NCBI GenBank assembly: GCA_024811115.1
Contig: JAKOGH010000783.1
Span: 186,001 to 250,000, forward strand
Origin: Terana coerulea
Taxonomy: Eukaryota; Basidiomycota; Agaricomycetes; Polyporales; Phanerochaetaceae
Reading direction: 5' to 3'
Length of the DNA: 64,000 bases
The position numbers were made by a program, and so were the translations under genes. Below the pieces are notes generated by a model that was given only the letters and a program-made list of their open reading frames with translations, ran no database searches and was not told where the DNA came from. Shown here in pieces: positions 1-61,527 of the stretch (position 1 is the first letter of the stretch; the number at the start of each line of letters is the position of its first letter).

Positions 1-3000
1 GCCATTGAGCTTTGCCTAACATCGGTGCACGTTGATGTCGTGCAGTCTATTCCTACGGAGGGGACAGGGACCCGTTCTCGGCCTTCAGCTCCGCAACGCA
101 ACTCTCTAGCTAGTATCGAAGTGCTCGCGAACAACTTTCGTGTGAAGGCCAGCTCGGTTCGGGGGAGGAGGCCGCGATCAGCTCGAGATCGCTGGCGTTG
201 GAGTTTGACCGACTCGCATGCGGAATTGGTGCCAGTGATTCGGCGGAACTGCCGTGGCATATCCTTGTCGGCCCCAGTCAAGTCGGCCTTATCGGCACAG
301 ACGTCGAGTCCTCTCTGGGCAGCATCTTCACCGAAACAAAACACAGTGCTCCTGAACATATACTTCCTTTACTTCTCGTGACACTACGCTTGGAGAAGGC
401 CCTGCAGACATCTCTGACGAAATACACCAATCTCTCAAGCAACTCCGACCAGCAGGTTATACTTCAAGCAATTGAACTTGTCGGGCAAAGGAACGTGCTT
501 GATCCGCTATCCACCACTCAGCCATCGTATTTGATTCAAAGCGGAAGACCTCATGAGCTCCGCACAGACGTAGGGTTTAGGTATCTGGCGTTCTTGCGGA
601 GATGTATAGAAGCCCTGGATGCGTCCGAACGGCACTCGCTGCGCAAGATACTCGCGGATTCTTCTACCCAATCCCTAGTCGAAGACGCTACTCGACTTAT
701 ACACAACTACCTGATCCAATTCGGAGCTGATGTGCATGCACTTTCCTTCCCGCGCGGCTCACCCCTCTCTTTCCTCGATACCGATGCCGCCGCGTCTGAA
801 GATACGAGCGGTGAGATGTTGATCAAATCATGTTCTCTGCGATTCAACGCGATTCAGGCCGTCTATGGCTCCCCGGACGGGATACAATGCGGGATTATCG
901 TCGTTCCTTTGACAGTCAACGCTCGGTCTCGCAAAGCAGAATGGCACGAGCCCCATTTTCCCAATCTTCCCAAGAGCACTGCGGCACTTCCTTTGGGCGA
1001 ACAAAGTGGCCAGGAAATACAGCATGTCGGGATCATCGTTTCTATTGGCGACGTAGTTCTTGATATCTACCCCCTCTTATCGACTTCGCTCAGCATGTCA
1101 TTCGGGTTACGAAGTGTCATAAGAGAGAGCTGTTCAAGAATAGGAACCACCATTCTCCTCCAGCTGACCTTACAGCCCAGAATGAGCCTCCGCCCTCCAT
1201 TGTATACCTCGATGCCGTCCTCTCTACGAACACCTTCAATATTCGAGCAGGCGCTGAGAACCTCCTCATCGAATACAAGGCGTCGGCCGTCGACTACGCG
1301 TTCTCATCCTTGGTGAAAAGCCCTGCCGGTCGCGCAGGCTCACTACATGTGTCAATGAACAACTCACTGATGTTCAAAGAAGCTCGTCTTCAGGCATGCG
1401 CGGTGGCTGACTTGTCAACTCCCAACGAACGTGCGGTCCTGGCTGCCCTCATTCTTGCCGGGGGCAAATGCAATATCCTAGGTCAGTATCATGCAGACAC
1501 AGGCCCATCGATCAGGGTAACGTCCGGCCTGGATAGCCTCCATCTGAACGTTCCTCGGAGTGCGATGCGACTATACCGCTGGATGGAGGAATGGAGGGAG
1601 GATTATCTTCCCAGGTTACAGGAGACTATTCAAGCGTTGTTGGCTGAGCTCAGTCCAGAAGAAGACCCCGCCTCGCCGGTTTCCGTGCAATCCAAGCCGG
1701 CCAATCAAAATTCCTGGGCGCCGAGGCATGTCGAAGTCGTCCTTGGATCTTGCCGGGTTTCTCTCCAAGTCATGCGTGGGACATGGATAGCCTGGGAAGT
1801 CGGCCAAGCAATGGCCTACATGAAGACTTCTGCGATCATCCGTGGATCAGAGAAGATGGCTTTTGGTGCACAGATCAGCTCTCACACGTTCATCGTTTCG
1901 TCGAAAGACAAGGTCGTAGGCTCTACACCCAGCATACGCGTCAAGCTCCCACTACCCACGTTTACAGCCACTGGCGCTCTCACCGGAACCCGCCTCGATG
2001 GCTTGGTCCTGGTCAACGCGTTTGCGATGAAGATGAAGCCTTCGCATTTGGACACTCTTTTGACCGTGCAACAGAAGTTTGGCCAGGACTTCAACGATCT
2101 CGCGTCTCTTATGGAGGACAGCCGACCAAAGGAAACACACAAGCCGCAAGGGATAGGAGCGTCTTCCACTCCAGCACTTCGCTATGGACTTCGCGCGAAG
2201 ATGCAAGGCCTCTCTGTGGGCGTGGAAGGCGGTGCTTCAATGGTATTACTGGAGTGCGACCACATAGCCGGAACTATCTCGAGAAACGACAACGGATTCA
2301 GCTGGCAAGCTGAGCTCTCTGATCTTGCATTGTCACTGGCGCCTCGAACAAGCCCTTCAAGTCCCGTACAAGCATTTGAAAGAGGAGGGCGATCTGCTTT
2401 TGTGGTCATAGACATGTCGGCCGGAATGGGAGATTCAACCCACAGTACAGACCAACGCCTCAATCTCGCCGTCACGAAAATCCATGCCGTGATGCAACCA
2501 AGTTCCATCGGCCAACTGGGCGACTTCATAGATCATCTGCAGGTAATATGTGCCCACTATCTCACTAAATCATTAATTCACGAGATTTTTTAGGCCGAGC
2601 TTTCTATCCGAAAGGAGCAGCGTGCTCAAGATTTAGCGGATTTCAAGGAGAAGACCTCAATACTCATGCGATCGTTCGGTAGGACTGAGACCAAGCCGCA
2701 ATCCGAAACTCTTAGCCTTCTGGACAAATACGTCATCAATGTCTCCTTGACAAACGTTGGATTTGCTTTCCCTCTGGCCCTCGATGGCGACCTTCAGATT
2801 CCTCGATCTAACAGGGCCAGTGATGGTACTGTACGAGCCTTTTTGTTTTCGATTAGGTCTATTACTTTCAGCGCGAACAGAGGCGAGAGTGGCCAAGCTT
2901 CCATGAAAGGCTTTTCTTTCCAATTTGTTCCCAGGTATCGTGTTCACGACTTCGAAATTAGTAAAAATATCCACTTACATGCGCCGTAGGTTTAGGCAAT

Positions 3001-6000
3001 CCGTCTCCGTCGACTACTCGGGCGAAAGTCACTCAACCCGCAACAGACTGATCTATCCCGAGATGACTGCGCAACTGCGAGCGGAGCAGAAGAAAAACTC
3101 TAGGGAGCTCCACATAGCTGCTGACGTAGACGGATTCATCCTGGATTTGGATTCTACAATCCCCGACTACGTCTCTTCGCTAATCGAAGTCTATCGTGAA
3201 GGCAAAGATCGAGTTGACCGTTTGACGAGTTCTTCCGGTCAAGCGGTAGTAGATGAAGAGACCCATACCACCGAACGTCGGGCCACTGAAGACGACTACA
3301 CCGCTCTCCTGACGTCAAATATCTTCCTTTCCCTCATCTTCAAGAGTGGCCGGGTTCGAATGTTCAGCCAAGCACATGGTACTAGTGGCAGGCCCCGCGC
3401 CATCTCAACGCCCTCTCAAGAACCCCTGGACAGTAGTCCTTACAACGGAGACTTGGATGGTGAATTGTTCAACTTACCTGAAGTGTCGGTATGGGGGAGT
3501 ATCGTGCGACGCCAGCCTCGCAGAAAGTGGGGAGCCGCAACAAACTTCGAGAACCTCCTACACTTCTCTTCAAGAGTACGATTCATTCCAGCCAGAACAC
3601 CCTGCGACCTTCGTTACTTCCGTTCTTTACGGAAGTGATGAATCATGTCGAAGCACGGATGAAGAAAACGAACTCGCCGGAGTCCCAGCTTACACCGCGA
3701 TCTGCGCCTGGGATCACTCCTACGTCTGCTGTGTCGAACTTGAAGCACCTGGATGAAACCGCACCCCGCCTCAACGACTCTGTGTCAAGCATGCAGATCA
3801 CCCTGAGTTTGCGCATAGACCAGTCCCGGCTCGAGCTTACGTGTCAACCCGACGTCAATGTTATTGCCGGACTTCACTGGGATAGCGGAGGATTCGTGGT
3901 CAACATTTCACCCGGAGCGCATCGTGTGACGTTTAGCGGCAGTGTCGGAGGACTCACCGTAGGCTTGAAACATGGCTTCCTCAGTGAAGACTGTGTTAGA
4001 CTGCACGCGCGGGACCTCGCCTTCACAGTGGACTTTGCGAAGGCTCGAGGATCTACCGTCAGCTCCGTCTCCGTGGTCTGTGATACCGAATTCTCTGGAG
4101 GTGTTAGAATCTCCCGACTTCAGGACATTCTCTGTTTCCAAAGCTGTCTGGCTCGAACGAATCCCGGTATTCAATGCCCCTCCCGCCACTCCTGGACCAA
4201 TGCACTCCAGGACCGCGAGCCATGCGAGCGTCTCCACAGCTACCCCCAAGCAAGAACTGACTACAGCCGTGCTCGTACGATTGCGCAAAGTCGGCGTGGA
4301 GGTCGACCTCGGCCAGTCCATATCATCCATACAACTTGACCTGTCCGATGTGGTGTTGCGTACGAAGCTCATGGAGAGCGAGTCTCAGGTATCCTTATCC
4401 GTAGCCCAGTTGGAGGCCGTTGCAACCGGCAATCTCGCTGGTCGTGTCACCGTTCCCGACTTCTTGTTCCAAACATTACGCAAGAAGGGCCGCAATGTTT
4501 CCGACGGATGCGCGAGCAAAATGCTGGATCTTCAAATGACGAGTGGTCCGTTGGATATCGTGTTAGAATCTGAATATCAGAAGCTGCTCTTGTACCGGTA
4601 TGTTCCCGATTGACTCTACGCTGAGACATGAGCTCACAGGCATTCATAGCGCTGAGCCGTTGGTCGTTCGTATCTACGATGACTGGTCTTCATTCGCGAA
4701 CACAGTCTTGCCGAAGGACCGTAAAGTCCGTCTGACATTCACTGTGAAGGGCTCCGATGTCACGGCCATCATGAACGTTGGAACGGTTCCGAAGCTGGTT
4801 TCTTACGCCACCAAGTTGAAGGCTACCATTGATGCCCAAAAGGAAGGCGCAAGTCGTGAATCTCAGGCGTTCCGGCAGTCCAATCCCTCGAAGCCGGAAA
4901 ATCCTCTATCCGACGTCGCAAACGCGATGCTTCTTTCCGCTAGGACTAGGTTTATGGAATCCGAGCCTGGGTTCACCTGCGTTATTGGCCAGCGGCTCAG
5001 CCTCGAACTCAACATGTTGCGGCTCGTGGTTTTCCCTCGAAACATGCGAGATCCCGAGCTTGCGCAGTTCGTCGGTTCTCGCATCCACGCCCGGCTGGAC
5101 AGGATTGTCGAATCGGAATCACTCCCTCCTAAACGCGAGCTGCATCTCTCCTTCTCCTCCATCTCGATCTCAAAGCTGTCGCACCTCAGTCTCGCCTTGG
5201 CCTCGAAGGAACAGGATGCGTCGAGTGTACAGTGGCTGGATACCCTCACCAAAGATGCCTCTCAAGCGACGATCTTCACACTGCCCTCAATGGATATGCA
5301 CATGAGCAGCGAAGAGTCCGTCGAAGATGGCACGAGGGTCTTGTCCTATGACTTCAGCAGCAAATTCTCTCAGAAGCAAGAAGGGCTGAAGGAGGAGGAC
5401 ATCTACATCACGCTCAACATGTCCCTGTACGCGTGGCTGACGATCCTGCGCAAGACCTTTGCTAGGGAAATGGACCAAGTTCAAGCCCCTTCTGAGGCTC
5501 GCCAGCCGGTCGTCGGGTTGGTCCAACCTAATGCATTGCGAAGAAACAAAGTGCCGGAGCCCCTTGTGTTGATGAACGAGCGCGACGGCCAGCTTCCCAG
5601 CCCTGAGGACAAGACAGAGGACGAGTCGTCGGCGACGATACGAGCGGGAGTGTCACGTATACGATCGATGCCCGCTAGGTACGCGAGCTTGGTGTCACCA
5701 GCTTCGTCCGACTATGCCCCCTCATCGCCTCCTCCACAATCACCCCCGGCGTCGGTAGGACGAACCTCGCGCATGAGCACGTCGCTAAACACGGCCACAG
5801 CTTCGCCGCTCGAAGAAGCGACCTCGCGCGCCCCGTCGCCGGGGCTGCCAGCGAACAAGAAGGCTTTAGGCATCGTGTACAAGCCGCAGTCGCGGAAAAT
5901 CGATCGTCTGACGATGCGCCAGCTAGGAGAGGCTACACCGGATGTCATGCACCCCTTCTTCATGAAGACAGCTGGGTTCAACCTCGAAGAGTCCTTGCCG

Positions 6001-6102
6001 CAGTACGTGCACGAGTATGCGACAATGCCTACCGAGGAGATCATGAAGGCTTTGTTGAAGTTGTACAGCAAGCAGCTCCGGATGGACTATGCTGCAGAAT
6101 GA
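1..6102 (+). CDS. CSF1: Csf1/BLTP1 bridge-like lipid-transfer protein, C-terminal two-thirds (5' end outside window)
   Basis: Giant protein of the VPS13-like bridge family (Csf1 in yeast, Tweek/BLTP1 in animals), which moves phospholipids at ER contact sites. About 2,000 residues are present; the N-terminus lies before base 1. Recognised from the conserved C-terminus (HPFFMKTAGFNLEESLPQYV, then a YSKQL block just before the TGA) and the RIYDDW and KAVWLERIPVF blocks. Clear introns are 2543-2593, 2935-2989 and 4598-4649. Frame breaks remain at the G5 run near 161-165, the C5 run near 1070-1074, the G5 run near 3491-3495 and an apparent extra C near 4140. At each, a one-base change restores a family-like reading frame. 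At 3489-3523 a 35-nt GT-AG intron would also restore frame, but that is very short. I infer sequencing indels. Transcribed toward the inverted repeat at 6381. Confidence 0.88.
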
Positions 6103-6621
6103 TGTCTGGAATATCAAGTTAACTGGCTACTCATGTGCTACATACAATACTCCCTTACTTGCAATACTGCACCTGTGATTTGAGTTGAAATCAAAGAGTA
6201 GGTTACTCTTCAGGGACATTCCGTCGGTGTCACTGAAGTAGGTCTGAGGCGGCGATCGTGCCCCCAGACCGGAAGACCACATGTTTCACGGATTCCCCCA
6301 TTTGATTTCACAGTTGCTGTATCACGTCACATACGAAAATGAGCCAGCTAAGTGGGTATTCGATTCAGATAGGGTGCAGGACACAGAGATGGGATGATTA
6401 CGATACACGGAGAATAACACACGGGAATAAGCGACTACTCGTACAAAGCCATACTAAGCGAGAATACAGGAAGACCATCAAGCAAGAAACCCAGTCAGCA
6501 GGCTCATGGGACTTTCATACGGTCGCGTCACTGCACATGAACGAAACGTACAACGAGCGCAAACTGCCAGGCATGTGAGCAGGTAGCAACGGGCCTGCGT
6601 ACCGGGCGCACGTTCCACCCA

Positions 6622-7094
6622 TCACTGTAGCCGGAGGGCATGTCAGCACGACAATGTGGCATAGCACGGGCTGGGTGGACGGCACTCACCGCACCAAGGG
6701 CACGAGTGTAGATCTGAGCAAGCTCCTCCGCGGTCTGAATCTCGCCCATCGCCACCTTGCTGTGCGCGTCGCCGATAGCTCCCATATAAGCGGAAGCGTG
6801 TTCGGGAGCAACGTTAGCGAAGGGGCGACCACCTCCGGTCGAGCGCAAGTATTCGTTCGCTACGAGAAACGCCGTGCGTTTGTTCCCGTCCTGGAAAGGG
6901 TGGTTCATGATGATGCCGAAAGCCAGCTCAGCGGCGAGGCGCGGGGCGGAGGCTTCAGTGGGCTTGTAGTACGCCACGAACTCGGGGCGTCTGAGTGCGG
7001 AGTCGAGCTCGTTGGGCTTGACGACGACAGACCGGTTGCTGGTCACGAGGTTGTTGAGCTGCTGAACGAACTCCTTGGTGAGGCGGGAGGCCAT
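6622..7094 (-). CDS. Doc-like Fic-domain protein, left inverted-repeat copy
   Basis: Small Fic/Doc (Fido-fold) protein of 135 residues. The signature HPFQDGNKRT lies at residues 65-74. The catalytic His is first and the last motif residues are GNKR, not the GNGR of AMP-transferring Fic enzymes. In phage P1 Doc this Gly-to-Lys form is known to phosphorylate a Thr of EF-Tu, so a kinase-type activity is plausible here but not shown. I see no [S/T]xxxE[G/N] autoinhibitory motif. Exon 1 is 6690-7094. A 65-nt intron (6625-6689, donor GTGAGT) is followed directly by TGA at 6622-6624, so the last coding exon holds only the stop codon. A TATA box lies about 107 bp upstream of the ATG. The gene points outward, toward the 3' end of CSF1. 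Confidence 0.85.
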
Positions 7095-7200
7095 GGCTGT
7101 GATAAGCTGGTTGGGGGGTCGGGTGAGGAGGCGGTTGGGTGAAGCTCAGAATGAAGCTGAAGATGCGTTGGTGCTGGGACTGGTAGAGGTCTTGTGCAGC

Positions 7201-7207
7201 TTATATA
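7201..7207 (-). promoter_or_regulatory. TATA box of left Fic gene
   Basis: TATATAA on the minus strand, about 107 bp before the ATG at 7094. The same box occurs at the mirrored position in the right arm. Confidence 0.6.
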
Positions 7208-7983
7208 GCGGTGGGAGGAACGCTCGTAGCCTTTAACAGGAGACCTATGGTCACCGCGCGAGCGAACACGCACCAGTACCAGCGGTGGAGGCACAGCCAT
7301 ATGTTCCCATACAATGGCCCTGAATTTCCTAAACATCACTATTGTGAGCCTCGTGAGTCAGAATCAGAGGAGGCGAATCTGAAGGTTCACCCAAGGAGAC
7401 ATGAGGCTAGTGATACGCAGACTGAGGACTAGGTCGAATAGGGATTGGTCTTCATTCCTCGCGCAGAAGCACCGATGGCCAGCGCACCCCTCCAACGAAA
7501 TTCGGTACTTGTACACCAGCGTCCTAGGGCCACATCATCGACGCAGCATTCAGCTCCCGAGGTTGCGAGTCATTGCCAAGATGGTAAGAGCAACACGCTT
7601 CCCTGTATTTGGAGGTCAAACAGTGGTCAACACGTATACCTTCCAGGACCGTCCCAGATGTAGTTACATGGGACTCCGCTCTGTAGTTTCGTTCCCATGA
7701 TACTTCTATGGCAATATGACTCTTGTTGTGCTGGGCTGTTGGCGTTGTCAAGAACTTCACCAACTACAATGACGCCACCAGGAAAACTCACGATTTGTCG
7801 ATGTTTGCTGAGGGTCTAGGGTGTAATGGGCATGGAGGTCACTCCTGGGCGGCGCAAAAGCTTCCGTCGCCTTGCCATTCAGCACCAAGGTCGTACGTTG
7901 CACTGCTCGGGCTCGGGCTCAGTACGCGGTGGATTCGACTGCCACGCCACCATTAACAGCACAACTCGCTCGCCACATTCAAA
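7208..7983. other. Gene-free inner part of left arm
   Basis: About 780 bp upstream of the left Fic promoter, mirrored exactly at 9424-10199. Several short open frames exist on both strands, but none shows a recognisable domain, splice pattern or codon bias. I see upstream and promoter DNA only. Confidence 0.5.
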
Positions 7984-8036
7984 TATTCACCGAGAATAAA
8001 CGTACAAGCTTAGTAAGCAGCATGAGCATTGTACAG

Positions 8037-8569
8037 CTACGAGCTGCCCCGCATAGCCTTAGCTAATCCTTCTACGTCTAGTTTTCCAGCAGCTGCGTTG
8101 ATGTGCTCATCCGCAATTGTGCTGAGTTTTGCATAGACGGCACCAACTTTCCCTGCATCGGCCAGGCCGGGCAGGCCCTGAGCCCGAAGGTATTCGTTTG
8201 CGATGAAAAAGCTGTGAAAAAGGTAAGAATACAACTGGTGAAAAAGGAGTATCATTTACGATACCTGTGCGTTTGTTTCCATCCTTGAAAGGATGACCTG
8301 TTGACAGTTGGTCGGTCTCTTCGCGGTCATTCCGAGGGTTGTCATGTAAATTACGTACCATTAATCAGCCCAAACGAGAGCGTGGCTGCTAGATACGTTG
8401 CATTTCGTTCGGGCTCATAGATTGACACGTTTAAGGGACGTGCTAGAGCAGACTCGAGTTCATTTGGTTTTACAACCACCGACTCTGCGGGATGGACGAT
8501 CTGGGCATTAATACGTCGAGCATACTCAGGTGTGAAGAGTCGATGGAGGCGTGTAGCGTGTGCGGACAT
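8037..8569 (-). CDS. Second Doc-like Fic-domain protein, divergent paralogue in the spacer
   Basis: Paralogue of the arm-encoded Fic proteins: both share the N-terminal VVVKPNEL block and the motif HPFKDGNKRT (here about residues 72-81). Three exons are visible: 8359-8569, 8265-8297 and 8037-8211, with GT-AG introns of 61 nt (8298-8358) and 53 nt (8212-8264). The arm copies have no intron at these positions. The exon lengths sum to 419, one short of a multiple of three. The break is at the five-A run 8206-8210 just inside exon 3, beyond which the frame continues with the shared ANEYLR block. It is either a one-base sequencing loss or a real inactivating frameshift just after the catalytic motif. 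As in the arm copies, a Lys replaces the second Gly of the canonical motif. It is divergent from the gene at 8909. Confidence 0.75.
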
Positions 8570-8908
8570 GATTTTCGCAGAGAAGACTCGAAGGGAGAGG
8601 CAGCTTTGCGGCAGATTGTTCGAACGCGCTGAGTGTCGAGGTTCAACGTTGTAACGTTCAAGTTGAAAACCTAGGCGACCGTAATGTGGGGTTGATGATG
8701 TTGATCGCGGGATACGCGGTCCGCCACGGCCGTGCGGAAGTTGTTCGTTCTCCGGGAGTTTGGCGCCGTGTTACTTCAAACTTGAACTTCGCCAACGCTC
8801 CCCATCCGTCACCGCCAAACGAATTCCTAACCACTTGGTGCTAAGCTGGGTCGTGCTTTACACCTTGCTTGCTGCTATTGCTGAGCTTCTCGCTCGCATA
8901 CTCGCCAT

Positions 8909-9290
8909 ATGCACCAGCTCTGCCGGCAGACATACCGCGTTCTTCCTGTCGGGAGGCGACTACTGTCCAGTCTCACAGGGCAGTCTTCGCGCCGGGAATT
9001 CAAAGTGATACTTGACAACGACACTCTCTACGTTGAAGAAGCTTTGGCTGAGGCGCTTGGGTGGAAGGCTGACGTGGACAGCGCAAAGGGTGTCCCGTTG
9101 ACACTGAGTGGCTGGGGCCCGAATTATTTCGCCATAGCCAGAACAGGAACTGACAGTGGTATGTAATCCAATGGAGATGCAGTGTCCGGCTAAGCTCTTT
9201 CTTGATACAGATCTTTTGGCCCGGGGAACAGTGGAGAGTAGTCGAAATCCTCGAGTGCAACAATTGCTCGACTATTTGAAGGACAAATGA
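8909..9290 (+). CDS. Small probable mitochondrial protein of unknown function
   Basis: Two exons, 8909-9158 and 9211-9290, with a clean 52-nt intron (GTATGT to ACAG), give exactly 110 codons (109 residues). The first 30 or so residues are rich in Arg, Leu and Ser and have no acidic residue before about position 31, like a mitochondrial targeting presequence. The body has a conserved-looking block, LTLSGWGPNYFAIARTG, and ends DYLKDK. I do not recognise the family. It lies in the spacer between the two repeat arms, divergent from the middle Fic gene, with no second copy in the window. The start codon is the first ATG of the frame, and the presequence begins there. The joined frame and intron make this more than a chance frame. 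Confidence 0.6.
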
Positions 9291-10199
9291 ACGAAGGTAA
9301 GTTTGTGTTTTACGATCCAGCATTTTTATCGCCCACTAACTTATTTAATAGACAGAACTTGAGCTTACAGAACACGTCATTTGAAGTTTGTATCTACAAC
9401 TACGTTCTTAAGCCCTTTGATTGTTTGAATGTGGCGAGCGAGTTGTGCTGTTAATGGTGGCGTGGCAGTCGAATCCACCGCGTACTGAGCCCGAGCCCGA
9501 GCAGTGCAACGTACGACCTTGGTGCTGAATGGCAAGGCGACGGAAGCTTTTGCGCCGCCCAGGAGTGACCTCCATGCCCATTACACCCTAGACCCTCAGC
9601 AAACATCGACAAATCGTGAGTTTTCCTGGTGGCGTCATTGTAGTTGGTGAAGTTCTTGACAACGCCAACAGCCCAGCACAACAAGAGTCATATTGCCATA
9701 GAAGTATCATGGGAACGAAACTACAGAGCGGAGTCCCATGTAACTACATCTGGGACGGTCCTGGAAGGTATACGTGTTGACCACTGTTTGACCTCCAAAT
9801 ACAGGGAAGCGTGTTGCTCTTACCATCTTGGCAATGACTCGCAACCTCGGGAGCTGAATGCTGCGTCGATGATGTGGCCCTAGGACGCTGGTGTACAAGT
9901 ACCGAATTTCGTTGGAGGGGTGCGCTGGCCATCGGTGCTTCTGCGCGAGGAATGAAGACCAATCCCTATTCGACCTAGTCCTCAGTCTGCGTATCACTAG
10001 CCTCATGTCTCCTTGGGTGAACCTTCAGATTCGCCTCCTCTGATTCTGACTCACGAGGCTCACAATAGTGATGTTTAGGAAATTCAGGGCCATTGTATGG
10101 GAACATATGGCTGTGCCTCCACCGCTGGTACTGGTGCGTGTTCGCTCGCGCGGTGACCATAGGTCTCCTGTTAAAGGCTACGAGCGTTCCTCCCACCGC

Positions 10200-10206
10200 T
10201 ATATAA
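10200..10206 (+). promoter_or_regulatory. TATA box of right Fic gene
   Basis: TATATAA, mirror of 7201-7207. It lies about 110 bp before the ATG at 10314, so the open frame that continues upstream of that ATG is probably untranslated or promoter DNA. Confidence 0.6.
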
Positions 10207-10313
10207 GCTGCACAAGACCTCTACCAGTCCCAGCACCAACGCATCTTCAGCTTCATTCTGAGCTTCACCCAACCGCCTCCTCACCCGACCCCCCCAACCA
10301 GCTTATCACAGCC

Positions 10314-10766
10314 ATGGCCTCCCGCCTCACCAAGGAGTTCGTTCAGCAGCTCAACAACCTCGTGACCAGCAACCGGTCTGTCGTCGTCAAGCCCAACGAG
10401 CTCGACTCCGCACTCAGACGCCCCGAGTTCGTGGCGTACTACAAGCCCACTGAAGCCTCCGCCCCGCGCCTCGCCGCTGAGCTGGCTTTCGGCATCATCA
10501 TGAACCACCCTTTCCAGGACGGGAACAAACGCACGGCGTTTCTCGTAGCGAACGAATACTTGCGCTCGACCGGAGGTGGTCGCCCCTTCGCTAACGTTGC
10601 TCCCGAACACGCTTCCGCTTATATGGGAGCTATCGGCGACGCGCACAGCAAGGTGGCGATGGGCGAGATTCAGACCGCGGAGGAGCTTGCTCAGATCTAC
10701 ACTCGTGCCCTTGGTGCGGTGGAGTGCCGTCCACCCAGCCCGTGCTATGCCACATTGTCGTGCTGA
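10314..10766 (+). CDS. Doc-like Fic-domain protein, right inverted-repeat copy with altered 3' end
   Basis: Identical to the left-arm Fic protein through residue 135, including the HPFQDGNKRT motif. The splice donor that ends exon 1 in the left copy (GTGAGT) reads GTGGAG here because of one extra G. As written, translation reads through and stops at 10764-10766 with a different tail of about 15 residues, giving about 150 residues. If the extra G is an error, the gene is identical to the left copy and ends at a TGA directly after the intron. Transcribed outward toward YIP1. As with the left copy, no antitoxin-like partner is recognisable beside it. Confidence 0.8.
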   Translation: MASRLTKEFVQQLNNLVTSNRSVVVKPNELDSALRRPEFVAYYKPTEASAPRLAAELAFGIIMNHPFQDGNKRTAFLVANEYLRSTGGGRPFANVAPEHASAYMGAIGDAHSKVAMGEIQTAEELAQIYTRALGAVECRPPSPCYATLSC

Positions 10767-11288
10767 CATGCCCTCCGGCTACAGTGATGGGTGGAACGTG
10801 CGCCCGGTACGCAGGCCCGTTGCTACCTGCTCACATGCCTGGCAGTTTGCGCTCGTTGTACGTTTCGTTCATGTGCAGTGACGCGACCGTATGAAAGTCC
10901 CATGAGCCTGCTGACTGGGTTTCTTGCTTGATGGTCTTCCTGTATTCTCGCTTAGTATGGCTTTGTACGAGTAGTCGCTTATTCCCGTGTGTTATTCTCC
11001 GTGTATCGTAATCATCCCATCTCTGTGTTCCGTCCATGAATTTAGTTCTTGCGCAACCGTATTATGGACTTATTGTGACGTCGAGAAGCTCTTCAGCGGT
11101 AAGTTATCAACGTCACACACCCAGCTCGATCTGAATCTCGGCACCTCACAGTATGAATACTGACGTGAATATTCGACGCGCAGTCTCTCGGGGCATATGT
11201 TTGTAGCTATAAGCACGTCCAGCTGGCCACTGATCCCTCCTGACAACTCGATTGTTGACCATATATTCTCGATATCTACGCGCGGGGA

Positions 11289-12246
11289 CTATTTTGATAC
11301 TCCAGATCCGACATTGAAGACGCTGAGAAGCGCAAAGCATCCGTAGAGGAGGCCGACGGGATATGCGACAAGTAGTCTCTGGTCGGACATCCGTAACACT
11401 GCGACAAAAATATTGGATGCAGACCAGGTGCACCATAGGATTGACAAGGTGGAGAGGAGGTAGCCCAGCATACCACTGTGAGATAACCTTAGACACGGAA
11501 CGATGTAGTGGGTAGTATGTGACATACTCTAGTGTGATCATGACGCTGATGGCACCCACCCCCACCATCGGTAGTAAACAGTACCCAAGCACTGATACCA
11601 CGCGGTATGCGTCGATTCCCTTCTCAGACATTAGGTTCAGCAGGGTGTAGAGAGACAGAGAGCCTAGTAGGCCAACTCCATAGATATACCCGAATTGAGG
11701 TTTGCCAGACTGACACATGTGATATTAGTTAAATAGCACTCTAGAATAGACTTCGCGCTTACAAAGAGCAAGAATATGCCAAAGCAAATAATGAACAGCA
11801 AGGGTCCAGCCAAATCTGCGTCGTCCATAATTTGCTCGTCTACGCGTCGAATGGGGTTCAGGACGGTCATAGACTTGGCACGTATGTGAGAAAAGTTAAT
11901 CCCAAGTTCTGCAGCCAGTTTAAATCGCGAGTATATACCTCGAAATAGGGCGAACGTACCTTCCAGTAGCGGGGTTCGCCCTCCACACCACCTGTCCCGA
12001 ACGCCGTCCACCATCCACCTGTCTGCATATTTCCATACGCCGGAGGTACACCCCTCCCTGCGCCATCGACCCTTGGACGCCAGGGTTACCGTCCAAGCTT
12101 GAACGCGAGCCTGGGTAGAAGGTGCTTCCGACAGGGCTGGGCGCATAGAACTGCAGCGGTACACCGGACTGTGCACTGGGAGCCTGAGCGTAGTATTGAC
12201 TCTGTGAAGCGCTAGCTCCGTACGGAGCAGTGTTATCTTGCCACAT
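11289..12246 (-). CDS. YIP1: Yip1 family ER/Golgi membrane protein (YIPF5 type)
   Basis: Multi-spanning membrane protein that binds Rab GTPases (Ypt1/Ypt31) and Yif1 in COPII vesicle formation. The C-terminal half matches the family closely: FGYIYGVGLLG, SVLGYCLLPM, LSILWCTWSAS and LLVAYPVGLLYG segments form the hydrophobic helices. The N-terminus is a soluble Gln/Ser/Tyr/Pro-rich tail. Exons are 11960-12246, 11763-11908, 11528-11709 and 11289-11475. Two frame breaks occur in exon 1, at a G4 run (on the + strand the C run near 12051) and a C4 run (near 11972). Adding one base at each gives 804 nt and a continuous 267-residue protein reading into the conserved LLEELGINF block. It shares a 185-bp divergent promoter with NSA2. 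Confidence 0.9.
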
Positions 12247-12431
12247 GTCGTGTTTTGGGTAGGATTGGCAGAGAAGGTGGGTGGGATGAGGGTGAAGGAG
12301 TGTGAGCGGTGCTGCGTTCTGCGTGTCCGCGTCCGGGCTACGTGGGTGATGGGTGCGGAAACAGACGCCGGAGGAACAGTTGGCGGCAATTTGCGATCGA
12401 GTTCGACCCCGCCTCTTTTCCTTCGGCCACC

Positions 12432-13442
12432 ATGGTCAGTGTACGCTTTGCTCCTAATGCACAGAATTGCTGACAGCTAGTTTCGCCCAATCCAAACAGC
12501 CGCAGAACGAGTATATTGAAGAGCACATCAAGCGACATGGTCGACGGTTAGATTACTACGAGCGGAAGTGAGTAGCCTTAATTGGCGTCCAGCGGAGAAC
12601 TGTCTCACATAGCTTTGCGACAGACGCAAGCGCGAGGCTCGTGAAGCCCACAAGTCGTCCGCCCATGCACAAAAAGCCTTCGGTCTAAAGGCTAAGATCC
12701 TTCACGCCAAGCGTCACGCGGAGAAGGTCCAGCTGAAGAAGACCCTCAAGGCACACGACGAGCGGAATGTCAAGCAGAAAGACAACGCGGCCGTACCAGA
12801 TGGTGCTCTGCCGACGTATTTACTTGATAGGGAGGGTCAGAAGGATGCGAAGGCCTTGTCGACCGCCATCAAGGAGAAGCGGAAAGACAAGGCTGCCAAG
12901 TTTGCCGTGCCGTTGCCCAAGGTCAGAGGCATTGCGGAGGACGAGATGTTCAAGGTTATGCGAACAGGGAAGAGCAAGAAGAAGGCATGGAAGCGGATGG
13001 TCACGAAGGCCACATTTGTTGGAGAGGGTTCACGCGTAAGCCGGTTAAGATGGAGAGATTCGTCCGGCCCATGGCTCTGCGATACAAGAAGGCCAATGTG
13101 ACACATCGTCCGTCTGCCTATTACCCCTACTTGTTTCGGAAGCTTACATATATTCTTTCAGCCGATCTCAAAGCAACATTCCAGCTTAATATCCTTGGTG
13201 TCAAGAAAAACCCACAGTCGCCCATGTACACACAACTGGGTGTTCTTACCAAGGGTACGGTCATCGAGGTGAATGTATCTGAGTTGGGTATGGTCACCGC
13301 TGGTGGAAAAGTCGTATTTGGAAAGTACGCACAAATCACCAACAATCCTGAAAACGATGGCTGCATCAATGCTGTTCTTCGTAAGTCGCCAATCCTTCCT
13401 CCGTTAAATTTCACTTCTAAACTTTTCTTTTCAGTGGTCTAA
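12432..13442 (+). CDS. NSA2: Nsa2 ribosome biogenesis protein (eS8-like, TINP1)
   Basis: Pre-60S assembly factor of the nucleolus, needed for 27SB rRNA processing. The protein begins [20 protein letters not shown] right after the start Met and ends INAVLLV, as in yeast Nsa2. Length is 260 residues, matching the family (yeast 261). Exons are 12432-12434, 12500-12567, 12624-13107, 13162-13380 and 13435-13442. The first coding exon is only the ATG (context CCACCATGG), with intron 1 starting at the next base. One T appears missing near 13029 (GGTTC should read as GGTTTC), which would restore the [11 protein letters not shown] block and a total of 783 nt. Divergent from YIP1. Confidence 0.92.
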
Positions 13443-13716
13443 TATCTTCCTCGTTGCATCTTTTGTCGCATTAATCAGCACTCTTCCCCGCATTGTATCT
13501 TTAGACTACATGTATACTCGCATAGCTCTCTGTATGGATTTCCTGTACATGTCTTCTGCTTTCCCTCGTCGTTGTTGCTTGAGTTAGGCGCTCATGGCTG
13601 GTTGTGCGAGTGAGCGCCACTGTTCCGGATCTGGACGTGCTTTCTCCCTTCATCGCAGACCGTCTGTGCATACAAGTGTACCCTCTAATCCACCTCTACT
13701 CTCGCATATCCCTAAT

Positions 13717-14444
13717 ATGTCTGCCTCTCCCGCTCCTCCCTCTGGATCAGCTACGCCGCCAGTGAATCGGCATGCGCCTACGGCTGTCGAGCGGCAAAGG
13801 GCCCAGCTGGAGAAGCTGCTCAAGGACCCCGCTAAGCCGGCGTATGTGCCCGCACCACCAAAGGAGAAGACGATCAGACCTGCACGAGAGATGATGAAGA
13901 ACGTGCAGGGATCAAGTGCAGGTGCTGGCTCGGGAGAATTCCATGTGTACAAGGCGAGCAGGCGGAGAGAGTACGAACGGCTGAAGTTGATGGAGGAGGA
14001 AACGCAGAAGGTGCGCATGCAAGGTCGCTGGTTCTTTGCCACAGTCCTCACACACTCTGAGTCTAGGAAACGGAGCAGGCTGAGTTCGAGAAGAAGCGTC
14101 GCGATTGGGAGGAACAGGCGGATGCCAAAACGGCGAAGAACAGGGCAAAGCGGCAGAAGAAGAAAGACCGCTCGAAGGGCAAGGGGCCCGAAGGCGAGGC
14201 AGACGGGAAAGCTGGGGCGTCACGAGTTGCAGGGTCAGATGCTCCGCTGAAGAAGCGGAGACTGGTCGATGGCCAAGAGCTCGTGTTCAAGCGACCTGGG
14301 GAGGAGAGCGACGAGGATGACGAAGGTCACGAAGATGTTGGGCCGACACACGCGTATACTTCGCAAACTAACGACTCCGCGGAAGAGCCTGTCGCTGTGC
14401 CAATAGTGAACGCGCAACGAATAGTCATCCACGAGGAAGACTGA
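13717..14444 (+). CDS. PRKRIP1-like spliceosomal protein (DUF1168)
   Basis: Homologue of PRKR-interacting protein 1, a component of catalytic spliceosomes. The diagnostic segment is SGEFHVYKASRRREYERL at about residues 69-86. A coiled-coil, Lys/Arg-rich region follows (QAEFEKKRRDWEEQADAK), then an acidic tail with EESDEDDEGHED. Exons 13717-14010 and 14067-14444, separated by a 56-nt intron, give exactly 224 codons (223 residues) with no frame problem. The start is the first ATG followed by a Ser/Pro-rich leader; an in-frame upstream extension exists but looks non-coding. Family assignment is from the motif by eye. Confidence 0.82.
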
Positions 14445-58111: not shown

Positions 58112-59326
58112 ATGCCCACCCGAGTTCCTCTTCTTCTCGTAAGCACTCTGCGGTCGTTATGCACTTCACGCCAGGCTGACTCTCTTGTCATAGGGAACAG
58201 CCCTCATTGGCCACCCCGACACAGACGCAACGGTCACAGACCCCGCCGTCGCCCAACAGCTCATTGATTTGATGCTGCAGCATGGTCAGAATGGTATCGA
58301 CACGGCCCGTAGATATGCCAATGGAACGTCTGAGAAGGTACGCATCTCCCACGCATCGTCATCGCGCAGCTTGTTGACAGCATATACTCACGCTGTTTGA
58401 TCTAGCTCTTGGGCGAGAGGGACTTGCATGGCATAGCGCAGCTCGACACAAAGGTACTGCCATTGCCACCCGGGGGTCACGCACCCGAGAAGCTCAAGGA
58501 GACATTCCGGCTATCGCTGGAGGCTCTCAACGGGGTCAAAATACGCGTTTTCTACCTCCATGCGCCTGACCGAAGCGTTCCTTTCGAAGACACTCTCCAG
58601 GCGGTCAATGACCTTTACAAGGAGGGACATTTGTACGTTCCTGCGGTCAGAATGTAGTGCTCGATCTAACAAATTTTCACCCCAGCGAACAATTCGGCCT
58701 GAGCAACTTCTATTCATGGGAAGTGGCTGAGGTAGTCACTATCTGCCGGCTTCGAGGCTTCGTAACGCCCACCGTATATCAGGGTGGCTACAACCTGCTC
58801 GATCGCACTCCAGAAGCAGAATTGTTCCCTTGTCTGCGCAAATTCAACATCAAATTCGCTGCTTACTCTGCACTTGCTGGAGGGTACTTGACCGACCGCT
58901 TCTTCGTTCCTACCGGAGCCGACGACAAGACCAACCTAGACGGCTTGTCTCATTTCGATCCCAAGTGGAGACTCGCTGGCGTGTATTCAGCGAGATATTT
59001 ACCGAAGGCGTCCGCGGTCGCAGAGCTCTTGGAGGTGGCCAAATCTCACGATCTGACGTTGACGGAGGTTGCCTATCGCTGGCTCCAGTGGCATAGCAAG
59101 TTAAATGAGAACGACCACGGCGTTATCGTTGCTGCTAGCAGGATTGCACAGCTCGAAACTACACTGGCAGACTGGTAAGTTTATCCTGTAGAGTACCCAT
59201 CACGGAACAACAGCAAATATTGACTCATGTTACAGTGAAAAGGGCCCTTTACCGGAGGCAGTAGTGCAAGCATGCGAGGAGACATGGGCAAAGGTCAAAC
59301 CGATCGCGAACAACTACTGGTTCTGA
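58112..59326 (+). CDS. Aldo-keto reductase 1 (AKR7/aflatoxin-aldehyde-reductase-like)
   Basis: NADPH-dependent oxidoreductase of the TIM-barrel AKR superfamily. LLLGTALIG is the first strand. GIDTARRYANGTSE holds the catalytic Asp and Tyr, IRVFYLHAPDRSVPFEDTL the His after strand 4, FGLSNFYSWEV the substrate loop and TPTVYQGGYNLLDR the Gln/Tyr positions. Exons 58112-58138, 58194-58337, 58406-58632, 58686-59174 and 59236-59326 give 978 nt, 325 residues, with no frame error. It shares all four intron positions and phases with the copy at 60345, so the two arose by tandem duplication. The substrate is unknown; such enzymes reduce aldehydes from secondary metabolites or lipid peroxidation. Confidence 0.9.
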
Positions 59327-60344: not shown

Positions 60345-61527
60345 ATGCCTACGAGGATTCCTCTTCTTCTTGTAGGCACCCCTTCTTGGTATGTCCTACC
60401 ACGCTGACTTTCTGGCCGTAGGGTGCCGGCCTTATTGGTCGTGCCGGCACAGACGCGACCGTTACAGACCCCAAAGTTGCCCAGCAATTCGTCGACTTGA
60501 TGCTGCGACATGGCCAGACTGCGATCGACACTGCCCGCGGGTATTGCTTGGGGACATCCGAGAAAGTATGTGTTTCCCTCGTATTTAATGTTGCTCACCG
60601 TATCCATCACTCACAGTTTGTGGCCTAGACCCTGAGCGAGTTGGATTTTCACAGCACCGTTCAGCTCGACACTAAAGCGACCCCGAGCCACGCTCCTGAG
60701 AAACTGAAGGCGACCTTCCGGTTATCGCTGGAGGCCCTTAACGGCGTCAAGATCCGCGTCTTCTACCTCCATGCGCCCGACAGAAGTGTCCCTTATGAGG
60801 ACACCCTCCGAGCCGTTGATGAACTCTACAAGGAGGGGCATTTGTACGTGACCATTGCTGATGGGGCAAACCCACTCTAACTCATTATAATTCCTAGTGA
60901 GCAATTGGGTCTGAGCAACTATACCTCGTGGGAAGTGGCCGAAATCGTCACGATCTCTAGGCTCCGGGGATTCGTAGTGCCGACTGTCTACCAGGGTAGC
61001 TATAATCTGCTCGACCGCGCCCCTGAAGCAGAGCTATTCCCCTGTCTACGTAAATTCAACATCAAATTCGCTGCCTACTCTGCGCTTGCCGGAGGCCTTT
61101 TGACCGACCGCTTCTTTGCTTCTAAGGAGGCCGACGACAAGGCTAAACTATCTCATTTCGACCCGACGTGGAGACTCTACGGGTTTTATTCTTCGAAATA
61201 TCTTACGAAGACCCCCGCAGTTGCAGAGCTTCTGGATGTAGCCAAATCCCATGGCTTGACGTTGACCGAGATCGCACATCGCTGGCTCCAGTGGCACAGC
61301 AAGATGAACGAGAATGACCATGGGGTGATTGTCGGTGCCAGTAAGCTAGCTCAGCTCGAGACTACGCTGGCGGACTGGTAGGTCTATGCATCGCTGCCAT
61401 CATGTCTGTATACTGATTGTCCTTTAGCGAGAAGGGGCCTCTGCCTGAGCCAGTCGTGCAAGCATGTGAGGAGACGTGGGCGAAAATCAAACCGATCGCG
61501 AACAACTATTGGTTTGGAACCGTCTAG
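60345..61527 (+). CDS. Aldo-keto reductase 2, tandem paralogue
   Basis: Close paralogue of the gene at 58112, with the same catalytic blocks: AIDTARGYCLGTSE, RVFYLHAPDRSVPYEDTLRA, LGLSNYTSWEV and PTVYQGSYNLLDR. Exons 60345-60371, 60422-60565, 60629-60843, 60898-61377 and 61428-61527 total 966 nt, 321 residues, in frame. It lacks four residues in the third exon relative to copy 1 and a short Asn/Leu/Asp/Gly insertion before SHFDP, and it extends three residues past the shared ANNYWF end. TACTTAAAAG near 60260 is the nearest TATA-like box. Both copies being intact suggests each is under selection. Confidence 0.9.

Follow-up and report, generated by a model that had tools for sequence, protein, structure and literature searches.

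A Fic/Doc gene with a conserved, possibly antitoxin-like partner and a mirror-image Fic duplication in the fungus Terana coerulea

Overview

The nuclear genome of Terana coerulea contains a Fic/Doc gene beside a small, divergently transcribed partner gene which, judging from sequence comparison, is a conserved neighbour of this Fic gene in many Agaricomycetes. The pair lies in the spacer between two near-identical inverted arms that carry a second, more divergent type of Fic gene; the Doc-like spacer gene itself is of the type usual in Agaricomycetes. The preferred reading, held tentatively and at somewhat less than an even chance, is that a Fic gene has been kept together with an antitoxin-like partner and that one haplotype has been enlarged by inverted duplication of the second Fic gene. 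The window, meaning the whole stretch of DNA analysed, comprises 64,000 nucleotides of contig JAKOGH010000783.1 (C610 below; positions 186,001 to 250,000), and its features are as follows.

4600..6102, + strand: final open frame in the left-flank gene, 98% identical to contig C330 (CSF1 is the label given in the original prediction)
6089..11287, no strand: idiomorph-like interval; only the Fic gene (74% nucleotide identity) and short promoter remnants are matched on C330, whose own interval measures about 0.95 kb
6381..7983, + strand: inverted repeat, left arm, 1,603 nt long (self-BLAST, global alignment)
6622..7094, - strand: left copy of the arm-type Fic gene, with an exon at 7094-6690 and an intron of 65 nt at 6689-6625 (GTGAGT...CAG) that the stop follows immediately; splicing predicted by eye
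8037..8569, - strand: spacer-type Fic gene; introns flank the HPFKDGNKRT exon on both sides
8909..9290, + strand: partner gene with a single 52-nt intron; its product of 109 aa has a presequence-like N terminus
9424..11028, - strand: right arm, 1,605 nt long, matching the left arm in reverse complement (self-BLAST, global alignment)
10314..10766, + strand: right copy of the arm-type Fic gene; as assembled it reads 150 aa without splicing
11289..12246, - strand: right-flank gene, Yip1-like, its 3' end adjoining the right arm

Fic genes and inverted arms

Three Fic/Doc-type genes, two of them mirrored, had been described in the original prediction, and searches with PF02661 together with alignment confirmed them. 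The domain was matched in the left arm protein at an E value of 4.7e-13, and the scores of 50.2 bits for the arm type and 46.7 bits for the spacer type (the latter as a read-through protein) both exceed the gathering cut-off of 24. The catalytic motif HxFx[DE]GN[GK]R is present in the arm (HPFQDGNKR) and spacer (HPFKDGNKR) proteins and in a paralogue on contig C243 (HPFMDGNKR). Against TIGR01550, the death-on-curing model (curated cut-off 38.65), the read-through spacer protein scored 38.9 and the arm proteins 30.6 and, for the right copy, 31.4, below the cut-off, and a PDB search with the arm Fic protein returned no match at E <= 0.001.

Each arm does contain a Fic gene, transcribed outward, with one qualification: the left gene encodes 135 aa once spliced, while the right copy reads unspliced because the assembled donor site contains one extra base. 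This is one of the two arm indels, which falls inside the 5' splice site of the terminal intron (GTGAGT in the left arm). The spacer likewise contains the divergent Fic gene and the small gene that had been claimed for it, although the Fic frame as assembled is broken before exon 3 and runs out of frame from the third exon.

The arms themselves are as near-perfect as had been stated, and self-BLAST and global alignment of 6381-7983 with the reverse complement of 9424-11028 revealed 0 substitutions and two one-base indels, placed by the global alignment at 6686/10722 and 7112/10295. Identity stops abruptly at 7984/9423 on the inner side and just beyond 6381/11028 on the outer side. So close a match rules out coincidence. 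The arms most probably stem from an inverted duplication in the recent past, or gene conversion keeps them alike. The single-base differences deserve little weight because one-base indels are frequent in the region: from window position -83 to 6088, C610 and C330 differ by 27 indels, and in 24 of these the length is not a multiple of 3. An indel-prone assembly and arms that differ by indels only would also suit an assembly artefact, yet a fold-back read would run into the reversed left flank, and the true right flank, seen independently on C330, was found instead. With the second haplotype already represented by C330, there is no further version that could have been mixed into the assembly, and an artefact is regarded as very unlikely.

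Long, near-identical terminal inverted repeats enclosing a unique spacer also recall a transposon of the fold-back or long-terminal-inverted-repeat kind with Fic genes as its cargo. However, the arms are limited to two copies, with no third or dispersed copy in the fungus's own 48.4-Mb assembly, the frames examined included no recognisable transposase, and no target-site duplication was seen by eye at the borders. A transposon is hardly credible, and was rejected because the arms occupy a single place in the assembly.

The partner gene

The start codons of the partner and the spacer Fic gene are 339 nt apart, and the same genome holds a paralogous Fic-partner pair on C243, also divergent and separated by 241 nt. 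Beyond this species, at least 17 of 27 named fungal partner entries have a Fic entry on an equal-sized contig, and at least 18 of 31 partner rows on contigs of 5 kb or more match a Fic row, against at least 1 of 24 on shorter contigs (55 rows), where equal-sized contigs are taken as the same contig, the first of these counts draws on 37 of the 55 rows, and the Fic side comprises 120 listed of 300 matches. Matches of this kind occur in Obba rivulosa (13.1 kb contig), in Amylostereum (63.8 kb) and on a contig of 1,948 bases, and the two genes have adjoining locus tags in Grifola (A0H81_03787/03788) and Panus (1659451/1659450). From the tags and small contigs we infer that the partner lies directly beside Fic in other species. 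The conserved partner, the C243 pair and the contrast between Fic and its flanks in the two haplotypes (see below) did not feature in the original prediction.

The small gene had been thought to encode a probable mitochondrial protein, and its presequence-like start is borne out by composition, with acidic residues making up 1.8% of partner N-extensions vs 13.7% of the mature parts (43 rows). The partner product looks mitochondrial on these sequence features. A first fold prediction was set aside as too poor (pLDDT 61). When the predicted fold was searched with Foldseek and VIA-align, entries of the VapB/MazE/AbrB/SpoVT/Abh group filled 15 of 33 and 7 of 8 rows, respectively, and the modelled partner weakly resembles AbrB/MazE/VapB antitoxins.

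Sequence comparison gave no support for a MazE-type relationship: hhalign against MazE-type profiles (9 and 79 rows; local and global) returned probabilities of 1.6-2.6%, and HMM searches in both directions reached an E value of 0.24 at best. No MazE Pfam match was found among 35 rows scanned, Pfam and PDB profile searches with the partner were empty or under cut-off, and no partner relative was confirmed in prokaryote or viral collections. AbrB/MazE ancestry by sequence was set aside, being supported by neither profile-profile comparison nor HMM searches.

A Fic/Doc enzyme with a small conserved neighbour is classically a toxin-antitoxin pair (PMC2701414), and we infer that the Fic-partner pair may act as such a couple. 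As in type II systems, a small conserved gene adjoins the putative toxin gene at both C610 and C243; the co-directional operon with the antitoxin first is absent, the genes being divergent. No description of the Fic-partner pair was found in the limited body of open-licence literature searched.

The same locus can be read as an ordinary gene-family cluster, in which Fic is a regulatory enzyme of no toxin character, the partner is co-regulated from the promoter the two share, and the arms reflect a recent duplication of no selective consequence. This is rather unlikely, though it deserves serious weight. Many Agaricomycetes have the family, with 300 proteins reaching E <= 0.001 and 120 of them listed, and the motif is intact in most listed rows, as a useful gene predicts, and the lack of confirmed prokaryote or viral partner relatives and of antitoxin homology in the profile comparison also fits. 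The classical toxin-antitoxin arrangement noted above speaks against it, as do the large difference between the Fic haplotypes and the joint loss, on C330, of the partner and the intact motif.

A second haplotype

An arm-less version of the CSF1-YIP1 interval, for which the original prediction had looked to related species, was found in the same assembly. Contig C330 has the order left-flank gene, single Fic gene, YIP1; neither arm DNA nor the partner gene was found on it, and it looks like the other haplotype of the window interval. The two sequences share 98.3% identity in the left-flank gene over 6 kb and 92.4% in the right flank over 2.6 kb, but only 74% nucleotide identity between the C330 and spacer Fic genes. 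Between haplotypes, dS is about 1.2 in Fic exon 1, compared with 0.016-0.074 in the left-flank gene, 0.10-0.38 in YIP1 pieces and 0.087 in an S8e-family gene. The neighbour names fared unevenly: YIP1 is weakly supported by two exon pieces that cover consecutive parts of the Yip1 model at 15-16 bits (cut-off 28.6), and the gene labelled CSF1 gave no Pfam match in two pieces tested.

In the tree the spacer and C330 Fic genes group as sisters with support of 99/94; the branch leading to the spacer gene is 0.053 long and that to the C330 gene 0.56. The C330 motif is altered to HPFQDGHKR, vs HPFxDGNKR in most relatives, and departs from the catalytic consensus. The window carries what looks like one of two very different Fic/Doc haplotypes; the other, on C330, keeps one fast-evolving Fic without partner or arms.

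Selection may maintain unlike Fic haplotypes at a balanced or self/non-self locus, for heterokaryon incompatibility or defence, whether or not an antidote pair is involved. The idiomorph-like interval and the dS peak at Fic favour this, as does the absence of a second haplotig for four other stretches (2.5, 8 and 8 kb in the window and 2.5 kb on C243), one of the window stretches having only a 138-nt, 83% match on C382. Only two haplotypes were compared, however, the C330 Fic could be no true allele but another tandem paralogue, and far-left windows also reach 9.5% divergence. This reading is considered improbable.

Possible function

Under the preferred reading, in which Fic has been retained beside an antitoxin-like partner, the Fic enzyme, which like Doc has K after GN, would modify some other protein. 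A mitochondrial translation factor is one possibility, for instance EF-Tu, which is the target of bacterial Doc. The partner would restrain Fic through its antitoxin-like fold, and the arm copies could raise Fic dose or supply a second specificity.

A bolder proposal is a nuclear toxin-antidote module derived from bacterial MazE-Doc, retained by mushroom-forming fungi at large, acting on mitochondria and segregating as long-maintained armed and disarmed haplotypes. Here the partner would be imported and Fic would strike the mitochondrial counterpart of Doc's target; the armed haplotype would have mirror Fic copies plus antidote, and the disarmed one an altered Fic motif without antidote. This is judged a long shot. 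If true, the locus would be a selfish or nucleus-mitochondrion conflict locus. The selfish, drive-like, heterokaryon or dosage roles suggested originally are conjectural, and the ideas of a cruciform or of double-stranded RNA from the arms were set aside. A conserved partner with a start resembling a presequence would make fungal Docs a testable eukaryotic toxin-antidote module and provide a first candidate regulator, and having an armed and a disarmed haplotype in one assembly makes it possible to ask whether selection, drive or conflict maintains such modules.

Comparison with known systems

A MazE/AbrB-type ORF adjoins 70 of 79 near bacterial Docs, in a scan that used the single pattern [GN]HPFxDGNK, kept 80 of 382 relatives (one locus lacking a Doc frame), was biased by six MazE-paired bacterial Docs in the query alignment and under-sampled Docs with other motifs, many Phd-paired ones among them. 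At 12 plasmid loci read from 40 listed rows (199 records), the neighbour was annotated AbrB/MazE at seven, MazE-like by sequence at two, Phd at two and other at one; for two of the rows, AbrB was apparent from the listing beforehand.

The bacterial TasAB / MazE-Doc (AbrB-Fic) systems resemble the fungal pair in having a small partner of similar mature length and weakly similar predicted fold, and the near bacterial Docs in the set stand mostly beside MazE/AbrB-type ORFs (70/79; 9/12 plasmid loci). In contrast, the fungal pair is nuclear, intron-bearing and divergent rather than co-directional, and its partner has a presequence and no detectable sequence homology. Phd-Doc of phage P1 and its relatives shares the Fic/Doc domain and the K after GN, and the spacer protein narrowly reaches TIGR01550 (38.9 vs 38.65, as a read-through protein), whereas no Phd-type partner is present here and Phd occurs at 2/12 of the plasmid loci read.

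Mating-type, het and spore killer loci are idiomorphic or killer loci of fungi. They share with the Fic locus unlike sequences at one chromosomal place and a divergence peak, and differ in that the Fic locus has no known incompatibility or killing phenotype.

Among fungal Doc-like genes, a solitary one is reported in Aspergillus fumigatus (PMC1626090), and Coprinopsis cinerea CC1G_11123, which belongs to the same Fic family as here (P0089), is tabulated among primordium-specific defence loci with a value of 11 (PMC4082614). Both are nuclear, as here. These sources describe them as solitary or as a toxin component only, whereas at the Terana coerulea locus the Fic gene has a partner that is conserved, and another Fic type is present as an inverted duplication.

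Mirror arms and their Fic genes

The original prediction had described a near-perfect 1.6-kb inverted duplication around a third Fic gene, and this observation is confirmed: by self-comparison and alignment, the two arms are exactly as it gave them. The locus thus described holds three Fic genes. A protein search of the same genome placed further Fic genes on two other contigs only, C243 and C330.

Fic loci in the Terana coerulea genome
6381-7983: left mirror arm (1,603 nt), with an arm-type Fic gene
8037-8569, minus strand: spacer-type Fic gene
8909-9290, plus strand: small partner gene, divergent from the spacer-type Fic gene
9424-11028: right mirror arm (1,605 nt), with an arm-type Fic gene
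C243, contig of ~89 kb: Fic gene (motif HPFMDGNKR) divergent from a second copy of the partner gene, 241 nt apart, versus 339 nt in the window
C330, contig of 13.9 kb: Fic gene alone between the left-flank gene and the Yip1-like right-flank gene (YIP1)

Searching the assembly that holds the window (48.4 Mb, 896 contigs) with the arm sequence returned two places only, the arms themselves. The arm Fic gene encodes 135 aa, with its stop codon directly 3' of the terminal intron. One of the two inter-arm indels alters the donor site of this intron in the right arm; since one-base indels are common in this assembly, neither is a firm sign of a functional difference. Numerous one-base indels in coding sequence also separate C330 from C610, the contig whose positions 186001-250000 form the window (window 1-6102 and 11288-13923), and the reading frames of the left-flank gene are split. 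Together these features of the sequence suggest that some indel errors persist in the assembly.

Arm-type and spacer-type Fic proteins share 48% identity. In the tree, the arm type falls outside the well-supported spacer-type clade and near proteins of Mycena pura and M. vitilis (support 94/46). Among the matches listed, both Mycena species have arm-type and spacer-type rows on equal-sized contigs (3,327,505 and 854,849), and therefore the association of the two types may predate the mirror duplication.

Elsewhere in the window, self-comparison revealed a direct repeat of ~850 bases with 75% identity (58478-59322 and 60689-61514), and no ATG-started frame of at least 110 aa was found overlapping it.

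A second haplotype

The locus exists in two haplotypes, the second being C330, which is collinear with C610: identity is 98.3% across 6 kb on the left side and 92.4% across 2.6 kb on the right side. When four other stretches (2.5, 2.5, 8 and 8 kb) were searched, none had a second contig comparable to C330, the sole extra match being 138 nt at 83%. Outside Fic and short promoter remnants, no sequence common to both haplotypes was found across the interval. The unlike interval starts within the 3' end of the left-flank gene, whose last codons are haplotype-specific (window 6089-6102 versus the matching C330 end).

Measured per 250 bases, divergence mostly stays below 2% across the left-flank gene. 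It is 18-25% for Fic and 11-16% over the 700 nearest bases of YIP1, then drops to 0-7.6% beyond 12 kb. Two observations speak against a simple divergence peak: far-left windows also reach 4-9.5%, and values return to 4-5% at the right end. The pattern of dS agrees with these values: 1.2 for Fic exon 1 (34 of 56.3 sites), 0.016-0.074 for the left-flank gene, 0.10-0.38 for pieces of YIP1, 0.087 for an S8e-family gene and 0.36, inflated by indels, for the last partial gene.

The C330 Fic gene retains an open frame of 139 aa. Its protein is sister to the spacer Fic in the tree (99/94), with the C243 Fic joining next (97/81), and its branch is tenfold longer (0.56 vs 0.053 for the spacer Fic). An old allele pair and the retention of different tandem copies both fit this relationship. 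Its motif is HPFQDGHKR, and on this contig the loss of the motif goes together with the loss of the partner.

Altered motifs (e.g., RPFKAGNSAT and RPFLDGNKR) were also seen in eight other Fic relatives among the matches listed (P0138, P0144, P0146, P0163, P0172, P0122, P0149 and P0094). In Ephemerocybe angulata, the altered P0138 adjoins the intact P0121 by locus tag (923960/923961).

The partner gene and its association with Fic

A protein search identified 55 relatives of the partner at E <= 0.001; those with a named organism all belong to the Agaricomycetes, and none was confirmed in prokaryote or viral collections. The N-terminal extensions contain 1.8% acidic and 15.1% basic residues, versus 13.7% and 9.7% in the remainder of the protein, and 30 of 43 partner rows have an extension without any acidic residue. 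Judged from residue composition, such extensions are typical of mitochondrial presequences.

The Fic/partner pair is conserved. With equal contig size taken as the same contig, and among 120 of the 300 Fic matches, partner and Fic occur together for at least 17 of the 27 partner rows with a named organism, and, counting only partner rows from contigs of at least 5 kb, a Fic row of equal contig size exists for at least 18 of 31. A single 1,948-base contig carries both genes. The interpretation in the original prediction is broadened to a Fic/partner locus, of which the mirror duplication forms the outer, haplotype-specific part.

The Fic relatives listed include CC1G_11123 of Coprinopsis cinerea (P0089), which one table of a published study lists as a toxin component among primordium-specific defence loci, with a value of 11 (PMC4082614). 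Going by that table, the Fic family is therefore expressed at least in Coprinopsis cinerea.

Possible function and comparison with known systems

Perhaps the Fic/partner locus works like a toxin-antitoxin pair. The Fic protein would then be enzymatically active and toxic, its toxicity would be neutralised, and it would act on a target, with mitochondria as the putative site of action; the arm copies might add a dose effect. However, the pair is not classed as a toxin-antitoxin system, because, by sequence, the partner does not qualify as a MazE/AbrB antitoxin and the gene order differs from that of toxin-antitoxin pairs. In the Fic motif, the K after GN is the Doc-like state; Doc phosphorylates EF-Tu.
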